A DNA stretch of 16,774 nucleotides, taken from assembly GCA_024743015.1 (NCBI GenBank), contig JANSXJ010000040.1:1-16774 (forward strand). The letters run 5' to 3'. The translations under genes were made by a program, and so were the position numbers. The notes below the pieces were generated by a model. The model searched no databases. It was given only the letters and a program-made list of their open reading frames with translations, and was not told the DNA's origin. Positions within the stretch are counted from its first letter, which is position 1; every line of letters starts with the position of its first letter. Origin of the DNA: Hyphomonas sp. (GTDB lineage Bacteria; Pseudomonadota; Alphaproteobacteria; Caulobacterales; Hyphomonadaceae). Of this stretch, positions 6,605 to 16,264 are shown one piece after another.

Positions 6605-7537
6605 ATGTTCGAAGCCATGCTCGCGCCAACCGCAACCGTGCATGTAGAAGAATTCGAGCCCGCCGAAGACGCGCGCCTCGATACAGCAACCGAACGTATG
6701 CTATCGGCCGCGCTGCGCTTGGAGAATGAGGTCTATCTCGAAGGGGTCATTGAAGCTGCAAAGCTGGCATTTCCCGACCAGCATGATGCGATCGATGCCT
6801 ATGTCGCGGAAATGCAGACTCCGACCGAGCCGTTGATGATCGAGGCACTCGTGGTCACTGCGCCCGTACCGGAGCCGCCTGAACAGAGTTTTCTGGAGAA
6901 TTTCAGCGGCAAACTCACAATCAATGCCGCCTATGCCGAAGGCAATACCGATCTGTCCAGTCTCGGCGCGCGGCTGAATGTCAGCGCCAAACGAGCCGCG
7001 AACATCCATCGCGTGGACGCCTATGCCAATACAGGAGAGAATGCCGGACAGCGCACTCAGGAAAACTGGGGCGTGTCCTATCAGATGGATACGCTGTGGA
7101 CCGACGACGTTTTCGGCTATTTTCGAACGTCTTATGACAGCGACCCGTTTCTCGGTTTCGAGTATCGCTTATTTGGCGGGGCAGGTGCGGGCTATTACCT
7201 GATCCAGGAAGAGACTTTGTCCTTGCGCGGCGAGGTTGGACCGGGTCTGCGGTTCTCCAAGGAGACCGGAACCGGCACGGAAAGTCAGGACTGGGTAATT
7301 TATGGCTCAATCGATTCCAACTGGCAGATCAATTCGGATTGGACACTCAGCCATGCTTCGAAGGTGACATGGTCAGACCCCAGCACGAATGTGACATCAC
7401 GCTCAGAACTGAACACCGCCCTGACCGAAGCGTTGCGCGCAGGTTTGACCTATGAAGTGCAGTATGAGGAAAACCCACCCAATCAGAAAGAAAACGTCGA
7501 TACCATTATCAGTTTCAATGTATCATACGGTTTTTGA
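6605..7537 (+). CDS. DUF481 (YdiY-type) outer-membrane beta-barrel protein without visible signal peptide
   Basis: A 310-aa protein. Residues from about 93 onward show the DUF481 barrel pattern: a GKLTINAAYAEGNTDLSSLG opening, alternating polar and aromatic strands (WGVSYQMDTLW, GYFRTSYDSDPF, FGGAGAGYYL) and a terminal FNVSYGF. A final Phe is the usual signal for BAM-dependent insertion. Residues about 27-70 form a predicted helical segment (MLSAALRLENEV, VIEAAKLAF, DAIDAYVAEM) like that seen before the barrel in some alphaproteobacterial DUF481 proteins. The N-terminus (MFEAMLAPTATVHVEEFEP) is acidic and lacks a Sec signal, and the frame upstream has no alternative start before a TGA at 6503. 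Family members are called salt-induced outer-membrane proteins, but their function is unknown. It converges on the giant gene with 20 bp between stops. Confidence 0.85.
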   Translation: MFEAMLAPTATVHVEEFEPAEDARLDTATERMLSAALRLENEVYLEGVIEAAKLAFPDQHDAIDAYVAEMQTPTEPLMIEALVVTAPVPEPPEQSFLENFSGKLTINAAYAEGNTDLSSLGARLNVSAKRAANIHRVDAYANTGENAGQRTQENWGVSYQMDTLWTDDVFGYFRTSYDSDPFLGFEYRLFGGAGAGYYLIQEETLSLRGEVGPGLRFSKETGTGTESQDWVIYGSIDSNWQINSDWTLSHASKVTWSDPSTNVTSRSELNTALTEALRAGLTYEVQYEENPPNQKENVDTIISFNVSYGF

Positions 7538-7557: not shown

Positions 7558-10500
7558 TTATTCCGTACCCAGTCCGAGGCTCTCCACAAGACCCTTGATC
7601 GTGTTTTGATCGAACTTTGCCCGTAGTTTGATGTAAGGGCCTTCCTGTTTGTATTTGGCCGCCTCGAAGTCGCTATCGTCAAATCCGGATGCGTTCCAAC
7701 CGACGCTGATCCAGACGTTCTTCTCTGGACTGAATCCAATACTTGGACCGTACGACCAGGTCTCGGTCCCGCTCACCTCGCCAGAAGTCCAGGTTGCCTG
7801 GAAGCCAAGATCGATTTTCTTGGTGATATCGTGGCGCGCCTCGCCCCCGACCAGGTGGGTAAACCCGCTGGCTTTTGCGCCGTTAAACTCCGTCTCGACA
7901 TGCTTGATACCGTGATAAACAGATACTTGCGTCCGTTTGGAGACCATCGCGTTCACCGCCAGATTGTTCACCACTTTCGAACGATTCTGAACACCATCCT
8001 CTTTCAAGTGACCATAATCAAAGCGGTTCAGCACCACCATGCCTTCACCGCGCGGACGCCAGGCTGCGCCGACACGAATATCCGTTTGTTTTCTGTTGGC
8101 CTGCTCTGTCAGCGACTCCCGTTGTTGCCGCGCCGCAGCGGAGAAGGAGAGGGTGTTGGTAATCTCTCTCGCCCCGCCAAGAACCGCAACCAGTCGCTTT
8201 CCGGATGTGCTATCGCGCGCTTCAATTCGGCCTGACGCCGCCATGCCCTCAACCTGGAATCCTGCTCCGAGATAGGCGGATGTGTATTGCTCAGACTCGG
8301 TGAGCGGGCTGCGCACACCATCCTCGAGCGGACCGAATGCGGCGTCTGGGGCAACGTCCAGTGGCGCATCACCGCCATCCACGTTCGCGCGGCGCGCCAG
8401 ACCGCCGCTCAAGGTCCAGGCGTCACTCACCTGCCAGACCTGATCGACGCCGACCGTGGCGCCAATCCGCTGCGCGCTATCCTGGGTCAACATATCAGCT
8501 CCGGCGCGGATCTGCGTGCCGCCGCGCGGCTCCCAGGTCACGCCAGCAATCGTGTTCTGACCAGAAGCGTGATCACCATTGGTAATCTCATGACGGACGT
8601 TCAGTGTTGCCGTTTTCCCAAGTGTCTTATCCAAACCCAGCACGGTACGCCCAGGGAATAGGGTGGCTTCATCATTTGCGCCTACCTGGTTCAATGGCTC
8701 TTCCCAAACGGCGCTGAGCGTCAGGCCCTGGTCGAGGAATGTCTTTCGCAGGCCCGCCAAAAGGAGAACGGATCGCCGCGCGTCTTCTTCCTTGTCATAT
8801 TCTTCCGCCACAGCGCGAAGTCCGATGCTTGCGCCGAATGTCTGGCTGTCTTGTGTGAGCAATGCATCCGCAACGGTCCGCTGCGCCCGCTGGCTCAAAT
8901 TTGTTTCGCGATAGGCCTGCGCTTCCACACGGCGCACGGAGCGATCATTACCGCCTGCGACTTCATGAACACCTATTTCGGCGCTGACTTGCGCCCCGAT
9001 ACGTCGCAGCGCTGACGTGTTCGACGCTTGCTGACCTAGCCCGAAGCCTTCTGTTTCCTGCCTATAGTACCCCGTCATACTCAGTTTTTCGGTCCGGTGC
9101 ACCGCCTCAAGCAAGACCGCATCACCTGCCATGTCGCCTAACTCGGTATTCGCCTCGGACGTTGCGAGCTCGGCCCGCAGCTCTGTCCGCTCATCCAGGT
9201 TCACAGTCAGATCTGCGGCGGCAAGGCGCGATCCATCAAACCCGCTCGACGCTCCGTCCTCTTCATGGACCAGGGTAAGGCCCGCCTGAACCTTTCCATC
9301 CGCCATTCGCGCGGCAGCTCGCAATCCAGCCGTGATCCCGCGTTCAGTGGCATCCGATGTTTCATAGTCGACCACAATTACGTTCGGATTGAGCGCGGCG
9401 TCCGTGGCATCGACAGGCTGACGGAAGAAGATCTCGCCGGTGGCATAGTCGATATCATAGTCGATATAGCGATTGTATCGACGGACATTCAGAACCTCAT
9501 CGGATCTGAATCGATCGCGCGTTTCGACCGAAATGACTTCTGATGATCGCACCAGAGGCGCTGATTTCAGGCGGAATGGCCCGGACGTTCCATCCGCAGC
9601 AAGCTCGTCCTTGACGAAGGTCTGATTGGTCTCAGACGCGAACGCTGTAACGCTGAACGCTTCGCTTTCATAATCGGCTTTGAGGCCCGACAGCCGACGC
9701 GAATAGCGGCCGAGATCCGTCTCGGTGAAACCCGTCTCATAATCCCCGAACAGGGCCTGGAACGTGTTCTTCTCAAGCTTAACATAGACCGGGTAGCGGC
9801 TTTCCGCATTATTGTGCTGCCAGGTGCGATCGCCGTAGAGCGTATAATATGCGTTTGGGTCGATTTCGTCGAAAATCTCGCCATCCGCATCGCCCCGACG
9901 CTTGGCTGTGTCGACCGCGACGGTGAGCAACCAGTCACCCTTGACCATGCCCTTCGCAAAAAAGGCGACGCGGCCATCCGCGGTCTTGCTGTTCACATCA
10001 CGCCCACCGGTTTCCGCCAATCGCGTGCTCAGACCTTCCGCTTCGACCAGTCCGACAACGATCCAGTCCCGCTTTTCCGATTCGAGCCAGACATCGATGG
10101 TTTCGACGGATCCGTCTTCAAGCTTGACCTCGAAGCGCGCGCGACCGGATTCAAGCGTGGGTTCCAGCTCGACCCTGGCGATGCCGTCTTGTCCGACGCG
10201 GATGCCTGAGACCGCAGCAAAGCCTGCATCGACCGGTGCTTCGAATTCTTCCTCAGCCTCTTGGGCCAAGCGGTATGGCGCGGCGACGTCAATCTCGACA
10301 ATCCGTCCCTCATGCACAGGATGACCGGCGCCATTTTCAAGGCGAATGGCGATCACGGGTCTGGTTCTTCCGTCCGCAACGGCGACGGACTGATCATCGA
10401 CCAACCATGCCCGGTCCACTTCGTCGACGAACCAGAGAGTCCGGGTCAAAGATTGAATCTCGTCGCCATTCTCATCATGGAGGCGCGCGACAAACGTGTT

Positions 10501-12621
10501 TTCACCGCGTTGAATGTCGACCCCGGCCCAGCGAGAGATTGCCACATCTCGTGATGCTGACAGATCTCGACCGGAGAAATTCAGACCTGGAACGGGTTGA
10601 CCGTTAAGCTCCAAAGTCACCTTCTGCCTTGGTGCATGAACGAGACCCAGGTTGGCTGATCGTCCTTGAGGACTCTGCCCGACCCGAGGATAGGCCCAGT
10701 TAAAGCCAGAATCCGTCTGGGCGTTTAACCAGGTCAGGTCAAAAATATCTTCGACTCGAGACTTGGCATCCGACTCGGTGACGAGCGCCTCAACAATGCT
10801 GGTCCTTTGCAGGTAGAAATTGGCGCGCCAGATCGTGCCGCCCTGGGCGTCGACAAATTTGGACAGAGCACTGCCGGCGTAACGCGTGCTTTCTTCACAG
10901 ATGATGGGTTCATATCCTGAAGGCAGCGTCGCTTCATCGACTTGCACGACGTGCGTTCCAGGCCGAACACCCTCGAAATGGAACAAGCCATCGGCGTCTG
11001 TCACCACATAGCGACCCGTTTCCATATATAGGCGTACGCCAGCGACGCCGGTGCCATCTTCGATACTGCGCGCCCATTCTTCATCTGGTCGGCAGGCGGC
11101 CTCAGCAACGCGTCCAACAATGGTCAGGCGCTCATTCAGGAAGTCGTCCTCGATTTGAATGGCGGCCTCTGCGGTATTCGAAAGTGAATCTCCGCTTGGG
11201 CTGATCGCGACCACCCGATTGACCGCCTCGCCCCGTTGCGCACCCGGCCCAACCGAGGCGAGATAAGTCAGTTCCATACGCTCGCCAGGCCCCAACAAAC
11301 CGCCCACGAACGTGAGACCGCGACCATCTGGATCTACGACCGGATCGTCAATCTGGGCGCCTGCCAATCGTGCCGACCCGGCGACATAGCGGAACCCGCC
11401 GGGCAGGGTGTCCTTCAAGCGAATGGGCGCCGACAACGTTGCCGCATTCTCGAGTTCGATCGTGTAACCAACAAAGTCACCAATCGCGGCTTGCGTCTCG
11501 AAAGCTTGCTTGCGAACGATGAGATCACTATTTGGATCCAGCGGGATATCCAGGTTCAAGGGTCCAGATGTCGTGATCGTGAACGTCTGGGCGAACGAAG
11601 CCTGCGTCCAAATATCAAATGGTGCATTTGGTAAAGCTTCGAAATCCGCTGTCGACCGAACGGATGGATAAGAGTAACCCGCCGGAGACTCGACCAGGAT
11701 CTGATATGTACCGGGCGTCAGAACCGGGAAAAAGAAAGCGCCTGGCTGGGTGAGAACTGTTTTTCCGGACGTATCGGTCACCGGTTTGCTGGTGAGCACG
11801 GTCGACGGAGACGTGCCGGTGCCATCAATGCCCAAAACCTCTGCTGGAAGTCCCGTATCTACATCTATAATCGTGACTGAGACATCGCTCAGCAATTCGC
11901 CGGTCAGACTGTCGAACACGCGGCCAAATGGGTCGATGACAGCAGTATCAATCGAGACTTCAGTCGCATCAAACGCGTCTACATAAGTCGCCGTCAGAAC
12001 GCTTTCCTGGGGGGCGGAAAGCTGCTCATCATAAATAGCGGTCGGGTCTCCGGTGCTTGGAAAGAACCCGTAAAACTCGCCCGTATCCGGACCGCTTTCG
12101 TACAAGCGGAGGACGATTGAATCGCCGCCATCCGTCTCAACCGTTACTATGACGGTCTCGATCCGGTTTGGATTGCCGTTCTGGCCCAGATCAATGACAC
12201 GAACGACCATAGTCTCACCTGGCACATAGGTTTGCGCCGGGACCAGGTCGACCGGAAGTGTCGGGTCCGTCGCCGCATCTCCGGGGAGCGCGATGCGATC
12301 TAGTGGAGAGAACGAATCGCTGCGTTCACCTGATGGACTATAATCAGAACCGTGCAATTGGACAGATAGGCCATCCGGGGCGTTCTGCACGATCCGGAAG
12401 AATTCGATTTCGGAAGGGGTGGTGCGCGCCTCAATAATAAAAGTCGCTTCATTGGTCTGCTGAACCACGCTGCCGGATGGAGAGTCTTGGCTGATCGTAG
12501 CCACGTTAGTGACGCGATCTCCCAGATCAGCGTTCGCCGGGACCGCGCATGCGAAAACCATTGCGCTCGCCAGAACGAGTGCAAACAACGCATGCCAGAT
12601 TAGCTTCCGCCCGAAGCCCAT
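7558..12621 (-). CDS. Giant exported protein: Ig/DUF11/SdrD-B-like modules plus large C-terminal outer-membrane barrel
   Basis: A 1687-aa protein. The signal peptide spans residues 1-31 (RK, then a hydrophobic stretch, cleavage after PANA). Next come a short VTNVATIS strand repeat (about 35-65), Ig-like segments (about 90-230), an SdrD-B/carboxypeptidase-regulatory-like unit (about 232-322), and a DUF11-like domain (about 365-490: VGYTIELENAA, LKDTLPGGF, SNTAEAAI). A second SdrD-B-like unit follows (about 498-605: VTDADGLFHFEGVRPGTHVV), then further beta-sandwich segments to about 850. From about 850 to the end, long alternating strands with FGDYETGFTETDLGRYSRRL and IDYDIDYATGEIFF indicate a very large barrel. 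The DY-x-TGEI-x-F pattern recalls barrels such as SprA; that is only a resemblance. Cys25 is not in a proper lipobox. The molecular role is unknown. GGAG lies nine bases before ATG. It is the third - strand gene after the IalB-family and DUF11 genes. Confidence 0.85.
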   Translation of the reverse strand: MGFGRKLIWHALFALVLASAMVFACAVPANADLGDRVTNVATISQDSPSGSVVQQTNEATFIIEARTTPSEIEFFRIVQNAPDGLSVQLHGSDYSPSGERSDSFSPLDRIALPGDAATDPTLPVDLVPAQTYVPGETMVVRVIDLGQNGNPNRIETVIVTVETDGGDSIVLRLYESGPDTGEFYGFFPSTGDPTAIYDEQLSAPQESVLTATYVDAFDATEVSIDTAVIDPFGRVFDSLTGELLSDVSVTIIDVDTGLPAEVLGIDGTGTSPSTVLTSKPVTDTSGKTVLTQPGAFFFPVLTPGTYQILVESPAGYSYPSVRSTADFEALPNAPFDIWTQASFAQTFTITTSGPLNLDIPLDPNSDLIVRKQAFETQAAIGDFVGYTIELENAATLSAPIRLKDTLPGGFRYVAGSARLAGAQIDDPVVDPDGRGLTFVGGLLGPGERMELTYLASVGPGAQRGEAVNRVVAISPSGDSLSNTAEAAIQIEDDFLNERLTIVGRVAEAACRPDEEWARSIEDGTGVAGVRLYMETGRYVVTDADGLFHFEGVRPGTHVVQVDEATLPSGYEPIICEESTRYAGSALSKFVDAQGGTIWRANFYLQRTSIVEALVTESDAKSRVEDIFDLTWLNAQTDSGFNWAYPRVGQSPQGRSANLGLVHAPRQKVTLELNGQPVPGLNFSGRDLSASRDVAISRWAGVDIQRGENTFVARLHDENGDEIQSLTRTLWFVDEVDRAWLVDDQSVAVADGRTRPVIAIRLENGAGHPVHEGRIVEIDVAAPYRLAQEAEEEFEAPVDAGFAAVSGIRVGQDGIARVELEPTLESGRARFEVKLEDGSVETIDVWLESEKRDWIVVGLVEAEGLSTRLAETGGRDVNSKTADGRVAFFAKGMVKGDWLLTVAVDTAKRRGDADGEIFDEIDPNAYYTLYGDRTWQHNNAESRYPVYVKLEKNTFQALFGDYETGFTETDLGRYSRRLSGLKADYESEAFSVTAFASETNQTFVKDELAADGTSGPFRLKSAPLVRSSEVISVETRDRFRSDEVLNVRRYNRYIDYDIDYATGEIFFRQPVDATDAALNPNVIVVDYETSDATERGITAGLRAAARMADGKVQAGLTLVHEEDGASSGFDGSRLAAADLTVNLDERTELRAELATSEANTELGDMAGDAVLLEAVHRTEKLSMTGYYRQETEGFGLGQQASNTSALRRIGAQVSAEIGVHEVAGGNDRSVRRVEAQAYRETNLSQRAQRTVADALLTQDSQTFGASIGLRAVAEEYDKEEDARRSVLLLAGLRKTFLDQGLTLSAVWEEPLNQVGANDEATLFPGRTVLGLDKTLGKTATLNVRHEITNGDHASGQNTIAGVTWEPRGGTQIRAGADMLTQDSAQRIGATVGVDQVWQVSDAWTLSGGLARRANVDGGDAPLDVAPDAAFGPLEDGVRSPLTESEQYTSAYLGAGFQVEGMAASGRIEARDSTSGKRLVAVLGGAREITNTLSFSAAARQQRESLTEQANRKQTDIRVGAAWRPRGEGMVVLNRFDYGHLKEDGVQNRSKVVNNLAVNAMVSKRTQVSVYHGIKHVETEFNGAKASGFTHLVGGEARHDITKKIDLGFQATWTSGEVSGTETWSYGPSIGFSPEKNVWISVGWNASGFDDSDFEAAKYKQEGPYIKLRAKFDQNTIKGLVESLGLGTE

Positions 12622-12736
12622 CCCCTTATCTCCACCATCATGCGGCCGACCTCTTTGGGTCTGTCCGCGCTCAAATACAGGCTGGTCTTTTGCCGCCTTA
12701 TGAGGAGACGCTATCGAACTATGGTTAGGATCGGAT

Positions 12737-12770
12737 TTGAGAGATCGATGAAATTTGATCGATCTCTCAA
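12737..12770. repeat. Perfect 13-bp inverted repeat in the leader of the giant gene
   Basis: TTGAGAGATCGAT (12737-12749) and ATCGATCTCTCAA (12758-12770) are exact reverse complements around an 8-nt centre (GAAATTTG). The repeat is centred about 130 bp before the giant gene's start. Neither strand has a T run after it, so it is not a standard terminator. It could be an operator for a dimeric regulator, or a hairpin in the 5' untranslated RNA. Confidence 0.75.
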
Positions 12771-12822
12771 GAAAAGTCAGTTCTTATTGGTCGATCAGAT
12801 GCGTGCCCGCCTGAATCATTGG

Positions 12823-12861
12823 CAAAAAGAAAGCCCTGAGCGCGGCGACACCCAGGGCTTT
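12823..12861 (-). terminator. Rho-independent terminator after the DUF11 gene
   Basis: Read on the - strand, AAAGCCCTG (12861-12853) pairs perfectly with CAGGGCTTT (12838-12830) around a 14-nt loop and continues into CTTTTTG. It begins 21 bases after the DUF11 TAA. It would end most DUF11 transcripts before the giant gene, so that gene needs its own promoter or read-through. Confidence 0.85.
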
Positions 12862-12882
12862 CAATCGTGGTTTGGGAGTTTA

Positions 12883-14130
12883 TTATTTCACGGCAGCTCG
12901 AATAATGATCTGCCCAACTTCTCCCGCAGCCAGGACTGCATCTGATAATTGGATGACACAATTCGTGGTTCCGTCACAGTCGCTATCCGCCGGCGTGCTC
13001 GGTGCACTCAGCACAGGACCCGCCCCCGCAACCCCTGTATCGTCGGCAAACCCGGTCGTCGTCGTCGTTGCAAGTGACGCCGCAACGAAGGTGACCTCCG
13101 CCGGAAGGATATCATCGATCACCAGGTTGGTTGCCGTCGCCGTCGCGCCATTATTCTGCACCTGAATAATATATTCGACGCAGGATCCCGGCACGGCTTT
13201 AGCGCCCGCGACGGCCGATGCTGTTGCGCAATCTGTCAGAGCAACGAACGGATCAGCAATGTCTGGCTCCTTGACCACAGTCACGGTTTTGGATGCAGCT
13301 AGACTTGCAGACTCAACCCGAATGATACCGGTGGCGGCAAACAAACCGTCCGCATCGCCAGCCGCTTCCGCTGCTGCGACGCCGGTACCATCGGCCAGGA
13401 CGTTCTGGGCCGACCCTGTCAGAACATTTGCACCGCCGGTCGCGGTGGTGACCGCCGCCGGTGTCGTGGAGGCCTCGTTCAGGAAGGCGGTCGGATCACG
13501 CGCTTCAGCCACCAGAGTAATGTCATCAGTGAACGTGTCCGAGACAGATGCGTCGATTGTTCCTTGCACCTGAACAAAGACCTGGACGCCTTTCGGGACA
13601 TCGCCAGTTATGAACGCCGACCCTGCCGCCGTCCCAATCGGGGTTTGCGCAATGGTTGTATAGGCACCATCGTCCGGCAATCCGTTATCATTCGCATCGA
13701 CGAGATAGCGAACCACGAGCGATGTCGCGTCGAAAGTTGTACCACCTGAGTCCAGATCATCGATCGAGAAGGAATACGCTGACGTATCATTGCCCTCATT
13801 CAGTACTTCAAACGTCAATGTGGCATTGGTGTTTGGCGCCGATGTGAGCGTCGAGTTGGTTGCCGTGACGATGAAGTCGACCTTCCGGTCAACCGTAAAT
13901 ACCGTCGGCGCTCCCTGCACAACCGCTCCGACCGGCGGACTCACATTATCGTTTGTGATGACCGGCTGGGCCGTTCCCGAGACGCTGTAGCTCAGCTCGA
14001 ATGTGTTGGAGACTGAAACGCCGGCTTCAGTCAGATTGTTTGCAGCATGTGCTGCGCTCGCCAAGCCAAGGCTCACTGCCACGGCAAGGCTTATACGGGA
14101 GAAAATCCCCCGTGCCCCTAGTCTACTCAT
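12883..14130 (-). CDS. Secreted DUF11-type beta-sandwich protein
   Basis: A 415-aa exported protein. The signal peptide (residues 1-29) has Arg residues, a hydrophobic core and an AHA cleavage site. The mature protein is acidic, rich in Thr/Ala/Val/Asp and nearly free of Lys. The N-terminal unit (about 34-110) runs VSVSNTFELSYSVSG to FTVDRKVDFIVTATN. A loop with DANDNGLPDDG (145-155) resembles a calcium-binding DxNxDG loop. A C-terminal DUF11-like domain (about 278-415) shows VEYIIQVQNNGATATATN and IDDILPAEVTFV. Four Cys (301, 317, 385, 391) could form two disulfides. It has no anchor, LPxTG or barrel of its own, so it is periplasmic, secreted or held by a partner. GGAG lies 11 bases before ATG. 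A strong terminator follows. The neighbouring giant barrel protein, which carries a related domain, is the obvious candidate partner. Function is unknown. Confidence 0.85.
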   Translation of the reverse strand: MSRLGARGIFSRISLAVAVSLGLASAAHAANNLTEAGVSVSNTFELSYSVSGTAQPVITNDNVSPPVGAVVQGAPTVFTVDRKVDFIVTATNSTLTSAPNTNATLTFEVLNEGNDTSAYSFSIDDLDSGGTTFDATSLVVRYLVDANDNGLPDDGAYTTIAQTPIGTAAGSAFITGDVPKGVQVFVQVQGTIDASVSDTFTDDITLVAEARDPTAFLNEASTTPAAVTTATGGANVLTGSAQNVLADGTGVAAAEAAGDADGLFAATGIIRVESASLAASKTVTVVKEPDIADPFVALTDCATASAVAGAKAVPGSCVEYIIQVQNNGATATATNLVIDDILPAEVTFVAASLATTTTTGFADDTGVAGAGPVLSAPSTPADSDCDGTTNCVIQLSDAVLAAGEVGQIIIRAAVK

Positions 14131-14233: not shown

Positions 14234-14734
14234 TCAACGGCAGATTGAATTGGCTCGATCTATCGCGTTTGACGAACCTTTCAGGGAGAAATGATAGGTC
14301 ACACGCGTGTTACGTGCTGACGTGGCTTCGACACGCAGCTCACTGCCGCGCTTGAGTTGCCGCACCAATGGCGCGTCGTCCTCGTCTTGTGCAAAGGCCT
14401 CGCGGCCGACCCCGAACATTGACCAGTTAGACCGACCGATCTTGGCTTTGCCCGGAAGATCGCCGCGCAGTTCGTAGCCGACCTTCAAGCTCGGTTGATT
14501 GCGCGCCTTACCGGACCGCCAATTGGAAACATAGAACCAGACATCGCCATGATCTGCAGATCTCGGGGCCTTGTCCGTCGCTTGGGTGGCGGCGTAACAC
14601 AGGCGCTCACCACCGACATCTTCGGTAAACACGACCCAGTCCGTATATTGCCGTACCACGGTCGGAGCGGCAGATGCCGCCAGCGAGCCAAACATCGTCA
14701 AAGAGCCTAAAACGACCAGGGATTGCCGCAACAT
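14234..14734 (-). CDS. Invasion-associated locus B (IalB) family secreted protein
   Basis: A 166-aa exported protein. The signal peptide covers residues 1-22 (hydrophobic core, ASA cleavage). The mature chain has the IalB-family layout: an early TDWVVF strand (31-36), Cys46, a central hydrophobic beta region (DVWFYVSNW, 64-72), a basic LKRGSELRVEA segment (127-137), and the end FSLKGSSNAIDRANSICR with Cys165. Cys46 and Cys165 are the likely conserved disulfide pair. In Bartonella IalB was linked to erythrocyte invasion, but most alphaproteobacterial homologues are general periplasmic or envelope proteins of unknown role. The start has AGGAG (14746-14742) seven bases upstream. It is divergent from the ECF sigma gene and lies 103 bp upstream of the DUF11 gene on the same strand. 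Confidence 0.82.
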   Translation of the reverse strand: MLRQSLVVLGSLTMFGSLAASAAPTVVRQYTDWVVFTEDVGGERLCYAATQATDKAPRSADHGDVWFYVSNWRSGKARNQPSLKVGYELRGDLPGKAKIGRSNWSMFGVGREAFAQDEDDAPLVRQLKRGSELRVEATSARNTRVTYHFSLKGSSNAIDRANSICR

Positions 14735-14812: not shown

Positions 14813-14903
14813 ACTCCAGATTAACGGGCGATTATGAACTTGTTGTATCGCAAAGGTTGCAATTCCAATCAGAAACGCGCTTTATACGAGTGCGAAGCTG
14901 AAC

Positions 14904-14910
14904 AGGGGAA
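14904..14910 (+). promoter_or_regulatory. Ribosome binding site that selects a GTG start for the ECF sigma gene
   Basis: AGGGGAA ends four bases before GTG at 14915. The upstream ATG at 14834 has no comparable site, and the 27 residues it would add do not look like a sigma-factor N-terminus. Confidence 0.6.
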
Positions 14911-14914
14911 TTCT

Positions 14915-15493
14915 GTGTCCCTCGACATGACTGGAAGCGACCCGACGGAACGGGATCGCCTGGCCGATTGCGTGGAACAAATCGCCAGCGCGAAATCGCG
15001 CGCCGCTTTTTCTGAAGTGTTTGAGTATTTCGCGCCCCGTCTGAAAAGCTACTTGATCCGGCTTGGTAGCGAAGCGTCGAGCGCCGAGGAAATCATGCAG
15101 GACGTGATGCTGAATGTCTGGCGCAAGGCTGGACAGTATGACCGTCGGCAGGCCTCTGTCTCGACCTGGATCTTCCGGATCGCTCGCAATCGTCGGATCG
15201 ATACGCTGCGGCGTCTGAACAAGCCAGAGCTGGACGCCGAAGACCCAATGCTGCAACCGGCGGAATCGGAGCAGCCGGACATCACCGTCAATCGTGCTCA
15301 AATCGAAGCTCAGGTTCGCACCGCCATGGACACGTTGCCTGAGGAACAGATCATCCTTCTGAAAGCGGCGTTCTATGAAGGGCTCTCACACTCCGAGATC
15401 GCCAAAAAATTCGACCTGCCTCTTGGTACGGTAAAGTCGCGAATTCGACTGGCATTCCTGCGTTTGCGGGGAACACTCGAGCGCGACCACTGA
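14915..15493 (+). CDS. ECF-family RNA polymerase sigma factor (RpoE/ChrR-associated type)
   Basis: A 192-aa group IV sigma factor from the GTG start. Region 2 (about residues 28-100) contains FEYFAPRLKSYLIRLG, EEIMQDVMLNVWRKA and STWIFRIARNRRIDTLRR, which bind core polymerase and the -10 element. A variable linker (101-125) follows. Region 4 (about 130-190) has LPEEQIILLKAAFYEGLSHSEIA and LPLGTVKSRIRLAFLRLR, the helix-turn-helix for the -35. The layout and several segments match R. sphaeroides RpoE, the singlet-oxygen response sigma factor (ECF11 type). It is followed by a ChrR-like anti-sigma factor, so activity is probably set by release from that partner. It diverges from the IalB-family gene. 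A longer start at ATG 14834 is possible but less likely. Target genes are not known. Confidence 0.92.
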   Translation: MSLDMTGSDPTERDRLADCVEQIASAKSRAAFSEVFEYFAPRLKSYLIRLGSEASSAEEIMQDVMLNVWRKAGQYDRRQASVSTWIFRIARNRRIDTLRRLNKPELDAEDPMLQPAESEQPDITVNRAQIEAQVRTAMDTLPEEQIILLKAAFYEGLSHSEIAKKFDLPLGTVKSRIRLAFLRLRGTLERDH

Positions 15494-15592
15494 GCTTATC
15501 GCTGCAATCTGGAGCTGCATTTGCTTGACGATAACCAAGATCCAACAATATCGGCGTATAGAACACGAAATTTTACGGAGCGTTCCGAGCCA

Positions 15593-16264
15593 ATGGGCAA
15601 AGCGCAATTGAATGATTTTGGAGAAGTGTATTCGAGCTATGCAGCCGGATGCCTAGATCCTGCTTTCTGCCTCCTCGTAGAGACACAGGCAGCTTTGCGC
15701 CCGGATGTCAGCCGTGCCGTCGCACGCGCAGAGACGATTGCCGGGATTTTTCTTGAATCGGAGCAAAGCGCTGCGCTGAGTGACGGCGCTGCTGCCACGG
15801 CAATGGCGATGATTGATGCCTTCGAAGCGTCTCATGCGACTTCTGATCTGGCTGTGCATCACGCGAATGAAGGTCTTGATGAGTTTCTGGCCCTCCCGGA
15901 GCCGCTGCGTGAAACGGCGCTGCAGTCTTTTCAAACGAACAAGTGGCAGACCCTGACAAGTGGAATCCGCCGCCTGAAGCTGGAGGCGAACAGCCAGGCT
16001 GAAATAGAGCTTTACCGCATCGACCCAGGCTGCACGGTGCCGCGTCACAGCCACAAGGGTAGCGAGTTCACGCTTGTCGTTTCTGGCGGGTTCTCAGATG
16101 AGAGCGGTAGCTTTGGACCCGGTGATATCAGCGTGAATGGCCCCGAAGACACGCACCAGCCCACCGGCGACTTGGACGGTGTTTGCTATGCCCTGGCGGT
16201 TCGCGATGGCGGCTTGAAGTTTACCGGCATGATGGGCCTGGTGCAGCGCCTGATCGGTCAGTAA
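15593..16264 (+). CDS. chrR: ChrR-like cupin anti-sigma factor with degenerate zinc anti-sigma domain
   Basis: A 223-aa two-domain protein. Residues 1-90 align with the ChrR anti-sigma domain (YAAG at 16-19), which binds and silences the cognate ECF sigma factor. Residues about 115-210 form a cupin with His152, His154, Glu158 (PRHSHKGSEFTLV) and His188 in place, matching the metal ligands of R. sphaeroides ChrR. In contrast, the four zinc ligands of the anti-sigma domain are replaced: His6, His31, Cys35 and Cys38 of ChrR correspond to Asn7, Gln32, Arg36 and Val39 here. Cys20 and Cys26 are present at other places. The ATG at 15593 gives an N-terminus of family length. A TTG at 15521 with GGAG six bases upstream would add 24 residues and shorten the gap after the sigma gene from 99 to 27 bp. 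Its TAA abuts the convergent stop. Confidence 0.88.
   Translation: MGKAQLNDFGEVYSSYAAGCLDPAFCLLVETQAALRPDVSRAVARAETIAGIFLESEQSAALSDGAAATAMAMIDAFEASHATSDLAVHHANEGLDEFLALPEPLRETALQSFQTNKWQTLTSGIRRLKLEANSQAEIELYRIDPGCTVPRHSHKGSEFTLVVSGGFSDESGSFGPGDISVNGPEDTHQPTGDLDGVCYALAVRDGGLKFTGMMGLVQRLIGQ

Follow-up and report, generated by a model that had tools for sequence, protein, structure and literature searches.

A small DUF11 protein is encoded beside a giant exported protein

What do a small secreted DUF11 protein and a giant exported protein build when their genes lie side by side? We addressed this question in a stretch of DNA of 16,774 nucleotides from Hyphomonas sp. (hereafter the window), which is contig 468 of the 585-contig genome assembly G000 and whose nearest named relatives, in a scan of a species collection, are Henriciella and other Hyphomonadaceae assemblies. 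Both ORFs are on the minus strand and 261 bases apart, with the 415-aa DUF11 gene directly upstream of the 1687-aa gene. DUF11 exceeds the Pfam cut-off of 24.6 bits in each product (30.2 in the small protein, 28.8 in the giant) and NCBIfam is concordant, with TIGR01451 in both. ORFs, Pfam and structure models confirm what a sequence-only reading of this DNA had noted, namely a small secreted DUF11 protein next to a 1687-aa exported barrel-type protein. The features of the two genes are:

12883..14130, minus strand: 415-aa secreted DUF11 protein, the proposed shaft subunit, with donor hairpin, first domain and truncated acceptor domain (ORF; Pfam DUF11, 30.2 bits against 24.6; family alignment A3)
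14044..14130, minus strand: subunit signal-peptide-like segment, residues 1-29 (AAHA followed by A; read from the sequence by eye)
13885..14019, minus strand: subunit N-terminal donor hairpin, residues 38-82, with Asn42 at 14005-14007 (Asn in 91/95; HHalign; pLDDT)
13492..13884, minus strand: subunit first globular beta domain, residues 83-213
12886..13302, minus strand: subunit C-terminal truncated DUF11/CLIPPER acceptor, residues 277-415, with Lys281 (13288-13290) and Asp340 (13111-13113); stops ahead of the Asn hairpin
7558..12621, minus strand: 1687-aa exported protein, the proposed outer-membrane fibre base (ORF; Pfam; structure models)
12529..12621, minus strand: giant signal-peptide-like segment, residues 1-31 (PANA followed by D; read from the sequence by eye)
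12424..12528, minus strand: giant N-terminal donor hairpin, residues 32-66, with Asn39 (Asn in 65/71 giants; homologous to the subunit hairpin)
11140..11526, minus strand: giant complete internal DUF11/CLIPPER domain, residues 366-494, with Lys371, Asp404 and Asn468 (Pfam; alignment to PDB 9IFR)
10906..11061, minus strand: giant SdrD_B / CarboxypepD_reg-like domain, residues 521-572 (Pfam)
9142..10089, minus strand: the giant's longest stretch of strong conservation (residues 845-1160), to which neither Pfam nor NCBIfam assigns a family at E ≤ 1
7618..9387, minus strand: predicted large beta-barrel of the giant, ~32 strands, residues 1079-1668 (structure models)

The pair is conserved across proteobacterial classes

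Among 61 related genomes, 15 carry the full giant and the same 15 carry the small protein; three further genomes have partial or distant giant matches only, without the small protein. The species collection yielded 14 loci, 10 in Henriciella/Hyphomonadaceae and 4 in Gammaproteobacteria (33-34% identity). At two loci (L027, L028) the flanking genes have changed and the pair is retained, and in the gammaproteobacterial loci L031 and L032 a related protein is again found directly upstream of the giant. The giant profile also matched 53 of 348 genomes in the order and 44 of 398 in the phylum (both at E ≤ 1e-40, own genome counted), and 11 of 385 in the class (E ≤ 1e-20). Since the pair is present in the order, the class and the phylum with changed synteny, the pairing extends far beyond close relatives, and the adjacency that the sequence-only reading had proposed to look for is thus borne out, named Gammaproteobacteria included.

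For the adjacency count we required 1.3 kb or more of sequence upstream of the giant, which gave 70 loci, and 67 of these have a same-strand subunit within 450 bp (61 HMM hits and six ORFs added by eye, in L194, L195, L196, L202, L206 and L211). In the three exceptions the subunit is frameshifted (L176), displaced by 1.5 kb (L185) or near the contig start (L208). Altogether 77 loci were read; eight ORF pieces that were frameshifted, edge-cut or part of a giant-like protein were excluded, and 16 ORFs (12 subunits and four tip genes, see below) were added by eye on the fit of their position and termini. The subunit HMM covers the N-terminus, so that detection depends partly on the hairpin found there.

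The small protein ends in a truncated isopeptide domain

DUF11 has been renamed CLIPPER, and the solved domain 9IFR is described as holding a Lys715-Asn806 bond, presumably catalysed by Asp748 (PMC12617251). The family profile matches 9IFR at E 1.5e-9. When the internal DUF11 domain of the giant is aligned to this structure (E 0.004), Lys371 and Asn468 fall on the bond-forming Lys and Asn, with the Asp one column off the published number; this one domain holds the whole bond triad, Lys371/Asp404/Asn468. Of the 72 complete DUF11 domains in the family, all have the Asn, 71 the Asp and 70 the Lys, so that the triad is nearly invariant.

The C-terminal domain of the small protein retains Lys281 and Asp340, and its triad is incomplete, the Asn strand being absent: the chain ends in GQIIIRAAVK, short of the Asn-bearing hairpin. 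This is a family trait. In the alignment, the isopeptide Asn column lies beyond the end of 93 of 95 subunits, while Lys is present in 92 of 95 (the Lys of L204 is counted as absent, and a neighbouring Lys there is possibly misaligned) and Asp in 93 of 95. The two exceptions, from L032 and L078 respectively, run on into a short C-terminal extension that lacks the Asn motif. At L195 and L196, several DUF11 domains lie inside a long protein, which likewise ends in a truncated copy.

Subunit and giant begin with the same hairpin

The mature small protein begins with AGVSVSNTFELSYSV...FTVDR and the mature giant with LGDRVTNVATISQ...FIIEA, and HHalign recognises the same module in both (97%, E 4e-11), a profile match indicating that the two hairpins are homologous. 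In alignment columns, Asn occupies the donor position in 91 of 95 subunits (79 of 83 without the 12 subunits added by eye, all four exceptions having been found by HMM) and in 65 of 71 giants, in an alignment that excludes two giants (L205, L206). The columns were used in place of a loose donor-motif regular expression, which matched 435 of 1429 control windows.

Direct comparison of the hairpin with the strands missing from the acceptor gave a less uniform picture. The hairpin profile matches the tail of complete DUF11 domains weakly (probabilities 6% and 26%, E 0.006 and 0.0007). When blocks sliding along the subunit were scored against the DUF11 tail, the three that overlap the hairpin were the top three of 45 (12.8-14.0; next 8.8), a ranking in which the local alignment chose the second Asn motif. 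Joining hairpin and domain in a test with the DUF11 HMM gave a mixed result, which we counted against the hairpin being the missing strands. When 18 giants were searched with a donor HMM, the N-terminus was the top match in about two thirds of them, usually at a low score, and the giant of the window was not among these. Equivalence of the hairpin and the missing DUF11 strands is nevertheless supported by position, residues and family pattern, and less by raw profile score. In one genome (G027), the donor Asn is gone from all three subunits, two of which also lack the Lys and the Asp; coming from a single genome, this joint loss is only suggestive.

We also modelled the small protein with AlphaFold. 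In the best model (the other four were poorer), pLDDT is 79-87 for residues 31-80, 80-92 for the C-terminal domain and 54-74 for the domain between them, and residues 213-272 form a long low-confidence linker. High confidence in hairpin and C-terminal domain together with a weaker middle is as expected if both ends pack together.

A third protein carries an acceptor and no donor

Many loci contain a further, conserved gene of ~160 aa (sometimes longer), hereafter the tip gene, whose product has one DUF11-like domain cut at the end point of the subunit and lacks the N-terminal hairpin. Linkage to the pair is seen in 43 of 70 loci, in some of them with the tip gene on the other strand. The loose donor expression matched 2 of 45 tips, both times inside the domain and in neither case as an N-terminal hairpin. 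The window has no tip gene. If a tip completes the chain, the genome should encode one elsewhere, and it was indeed found on another contig (G000:C284:1780-2256, 158 aa) among unrelated-looking neighbours.

We then compared the occurrence of tip and giant across genomes. Among the 61 relatives, a tip is found in 14 of 15 giant-bearing genomes versus 3 of 46 others, and across the order in 45 of 46 versus 18 of 302 (Fisher p ~1e-40, with kinship ignored). Counted among the 46 giant-bearing genomes are a few in which a full-length giant is represented by contig-edge fragments only (such as G959, G981, G930 and G1006), and the 302 others include seven with distant or core-only giant matches; G026 was scored as tip-less, its sole match being inside the subunit itself. 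The co-occurrence includes unlinked cases such as the genome of the window, and 16 of the 18 tip-bearing genomes without a full giant fall in a single genus (g5). Just downstream of the giant in G009, a 773-aa acceptor-only protein combines two stretches of GEVED and a CshA_NR2 domain with a truncated DUF11 end and no donor hairpin; GEVED and CshA_NR2 domains are described in fibrillar adhesins (PMC12617251).

Donors and acceptors balance in a proposed chain of tip, subunit and giant

Sorted by their termini, the tip has an acceptor only, the subunit a donor and an acceptor, and the giant a donor only. Donor and acceptor numbers therefore balance in a chain of tip, subunit(s) and giant, which favours intermolecular joining over closure within a single molecule. 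From the truncated acceptor, the homologous hairpins, the conserved Lys, Asp and Asn, the pairing and the co-occurring tip, all read at the sequence level, we infer complementation in trans, a covalent bond, a fibre, its surface exposure and its export route. Our main reading, to which we assign a probability of roughly 0.6, is a self-assembling surface fibre made of the shaft subunit and an outer-membrane base, with donor strands locked by intermolecular Lys-Asn bonds and an acceptor-only tip.

In such a fibre, the C-terminal DUF11 (CLIPPER) domain of the shaft subunit, without its last hairpin, would present an open groove, which a second subunit or, at the base, the giant would fill with its N-terminal hairpin as donor strand. 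The inserted Asn42 (or Asn39 of the giant) would meet Lys281 beside Asp340, the putative catalyst, and an autocatalytic Lys-Asn isopeptide bond would form. The separate acceptor-only protein would cap the far end as a tip, and the C-terminal barrel of the giant would hold the chain in the outer membrane. The suggestion that the barrel anchors, exports or assembles the small protein into a layer or fibre is thereby narrowed: a barrel-anchored fibre is its best-supported version, and the small protein resembles a polymerising subunit with donor strand and acceptor groove rather than a passive cargo. Likewise, the pair of the suggested two-protein layout is conserved, but a further, acceptor-only part exists and is encoded outside the window.

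The same conserved residues would also serve if the hairpin folded into the C-terminal DUF11 domain of its own chain and formed an intramolecular isopeptide bond, the closed monomer being bound to the barrel protein or released near it. The best AlphaFold monomer has both ends at good confidence, as pairing in cis would, and models residues 213-272 as a long low-confidence linker. However, with closure in cis the conserved donor of the giant would have no acceptor and the conserved acceptor of the tip no donor, and tip and giant occur together even where their genes are unlinked. We consider this alternative unlikely.

The giant has a predicted barrel and no recognised export domain

Structure modelling predicts that the C-terminal half of the giant forms a large outer-membrane barrel of ~32 strands, as the sequence-only reading had anticipated. 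Region 600-1687 matches no family in Pfam or NCBIfam at E ≤ 1, and at the same threshold Pfam finds no usher, FhaC, POTRA, SLAM or autotransporter domain in the giant. Its structural matches include the ushers PapC and FimD, PapC being one of many barrels matched by fold. Six proteins of the window were scanned with Pfam, which recognised no export machinery and no PapD-like chaperone among them.

Could the giant then be a secretion barrel, with the DUF11 protein as its released or displayed cargo, the hairpin as either an export signal or the mere beginning of the first domain, and a C-terminal domain that is simply short? The conserved pairing with a very large barrel, the presence of ushers among the structural matches and the weak similarity between hairpin and DUF11 tail all agree with this, and a hairpin common to both proteins could be a shared signal. 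Against it, the barrel protein itself bears the hairpin and the tip does not, the end point of 93 of 95 subunits is shared and falls within a domain of known fold, and the giant has no usher, FhaC, SLAM or autotransporter Pfam domain at E ≤ 1. Two-partner export thus appears improbable. A periplasmic or cell-envelope scaffold, a structural network of DUF11 proteins and barrel protein under or within the outer membrane for which Chlamydia OmcB offers a comparison, would suit the lack of recognised export machinery among the six scanned proteins, but is very improbable given the GEVED and CshA_NR2 domains of fibrillar adhesins in the acceptor-only protein beside one giant.

Other kinships of the giant were considered. 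The order of its parts (N-terminal passenger, C-terminal barrel) fits an autotransporter, but it has no autotransporter domain and ~32 modelled strands. Kinship with SprA (gliding/T9SS) was suspected and then set aside as less likely, SprA being absent from the Pfam matches, from the profile search against PDB sequences and from the 50 matches listed for each fold comparison. Deinococcus SlpA was among the Foldseek matches with a TM of ~0.30, which we read as a shared large-barrel shape.

Relation to known fibres

Chaperone-usher pili are built from Ig-like subunits, each with an N-terminal donor strand and an incomplete acceptor, arranged as tip, shaft and outer-membrane barrel. The proposed fibre would share the donor strand, the incomplete acceptor subunits and the tip/shaft/barrel layout, the first two being suggested here by the sequence pattern. 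In contrast to these pili, the giant has no usher family match, no chaperone was found among the scanned window proteins, and the barrel protein itself would give the last donor strand.

The CLIPPER fibrillar adhesin of Acinetobacter silvestris, B9T28_05395, is described as carrying CshA_NR2-like, GEVED-like and CLIPPER domains in one chain with an OmpA-like anchor (PMC12617251). Lys/Asp/Asn CLIPPER stalk domains, CshA_NR2 and GEVED (here in L237) and an outer-membrane anchor (here a predicted one) are common to both. That adhesin is a single long chain with intramolecular bonds and an OmpA-like anchor, whereas here the proteins are separate, the end domains are apparently split between neighbours and the anchor would be a large barrel. 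As cases of intermolecular autocatalytic isopeptide bonds, the same paper mentions phage capsids and a fold of alpha-helical hairpin type (PMC12617251).

In archaeal threads (Sulfolobus Saci_0406/0405), a donor-strand fibre, Asn57 is reported to be bonded to the N-terminal amino group two subunits away (PMC9715654). Going by this published description, threads and the proposed fibre would share an N-terminal donor strand, head-to-tail complementation, a covalent link between subunits and a partner with one half of the joint; the threads differ in their Asn57/N-terminal amino bond and archaeal origin, and the description gives them no outer-membrane barrel. TasA fibres and Pyrodictium cannulae were among the structure matches, as a common fold tied with unrelated chains. 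Assembly of TasA is reported to be driven by donor-strand exchange (PMC9674648); unlike the fibre proposed here, TasA fibres and cannulae are not barrel-based and have no split isopeptide domain.

Donor-strand fibres with covalent links are thus already known, and the proposed one is possibly a separate pilus class. The open-access literature searched describes neither a DUF11 domain split between proteins nor the barrel family of the giant, in keeping with the earlier remark that no characterised system with this layout could be named. We see about an even chance that these loci define a class of covalent Gram-negative pili, in which an isopeptide domain split between subunits makes insertion and autocatalytic Lys-Asn cross-linking a single event that needs no sortase, chaperone or usher, the barrel protein being the base that gives the first donor strand and the acceptor-only tips being adhesive. 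If so, self-insertion and self-locking through a split isopeptide domain would be a way of making surface fibres in two or more proteobacterial classes, and the subunits would be natural ligation pairs, a natural chain-forming counterpart of the split SpyTag/SpyCatcher pairs. It would also explain the joint encoding of a giant barrel with small DUF11 proteins, and give large uncharacterised outer-membrane proteins a role.

A terminator-like hairpin separates the two genes

Two features lie in the intergenic region of the window:

12829..12862, minus strand: terminator-like hairpin with a 15-bp stem and a T run, between subunit and giant
12737..12770, minus strand: 34-nt inverted repeat

Of 68 loci, 10 (seven of them in the genus of the window) have a strong terminator-like hairpin between the two genes, versus 7 of 663 control windows; this hairpin may lead to more shaft than base being produced. 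Outside this genus, the subunit and giant genes are mostly closer together.

An apparently broader barrel family

The barrel family seems to extend beyond the system formed by the subunit (the secreted DUF11 protein) and the giant (the exported protein with the predicted C-terminal barrel), because three fetched loci (L083, L084 and L088) encode barrel proteins of ~1,200-1,340 aa that carry the giant's core block, its longest strongly conserved stretch (residues 845-1160), and no DUF11 match was found within the regions fetched around them. The core block also lies within single open frames of ~4,900 to 7,100 residues on contigs of five genomes (G897:C4, G849:C4, G1018:C86, G1070:C8 and G832:C22). 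In draft assemblies, the reading frames of several giants from beyond the class of the window (L106-L111, L113 and L115) are interrupted by one or two TAA/TAG stop codons, which may reflect either sequencing error or decay.

A gene resembling the tip, the acceptor-only DUF11-like protein proposed as a far-end cap, is retained without a full giant match in 16 genomes of genus g5 (family f1). In G032 (L235), a tip-like gene lies near a trpB-like gene, a neighbourhood of the same kind as that of the giant in the window.

Genes flanking the pair

Around the pair, the window encodes:

6605-7537, + strand: DUF481 protein, matched at 141 bits and encoded between the giant and trpF
14234-14734, - strand: IalB-family protein, immediately 5' of the subunit
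14834-16264, + strand: an ECF sigma factor together with a cupin anti-sigma factor of the ChrR type

The DUF481 protein, read from its listed start, has no obvious signal peptide; its gene occupies the same location in L022 and L026 and is absent there in some relatives. In gammaproteobacterial loci, a TonB-dependent receptor immediately follows the giant (L031:15612-17645, L033:6336-8456).

The sigma and anti-sigma genes, which point away from those for IalB and DUF11, are retained in close relatives of the window (L020-L023 and L025) and were not seen adjoining the pair in L027-L029. The IalB gene is separated from the subunit by only ~100 bases, at the site that holds the tip gene in G022, where the order is IalB-like, tip, subunit (L185, L238).
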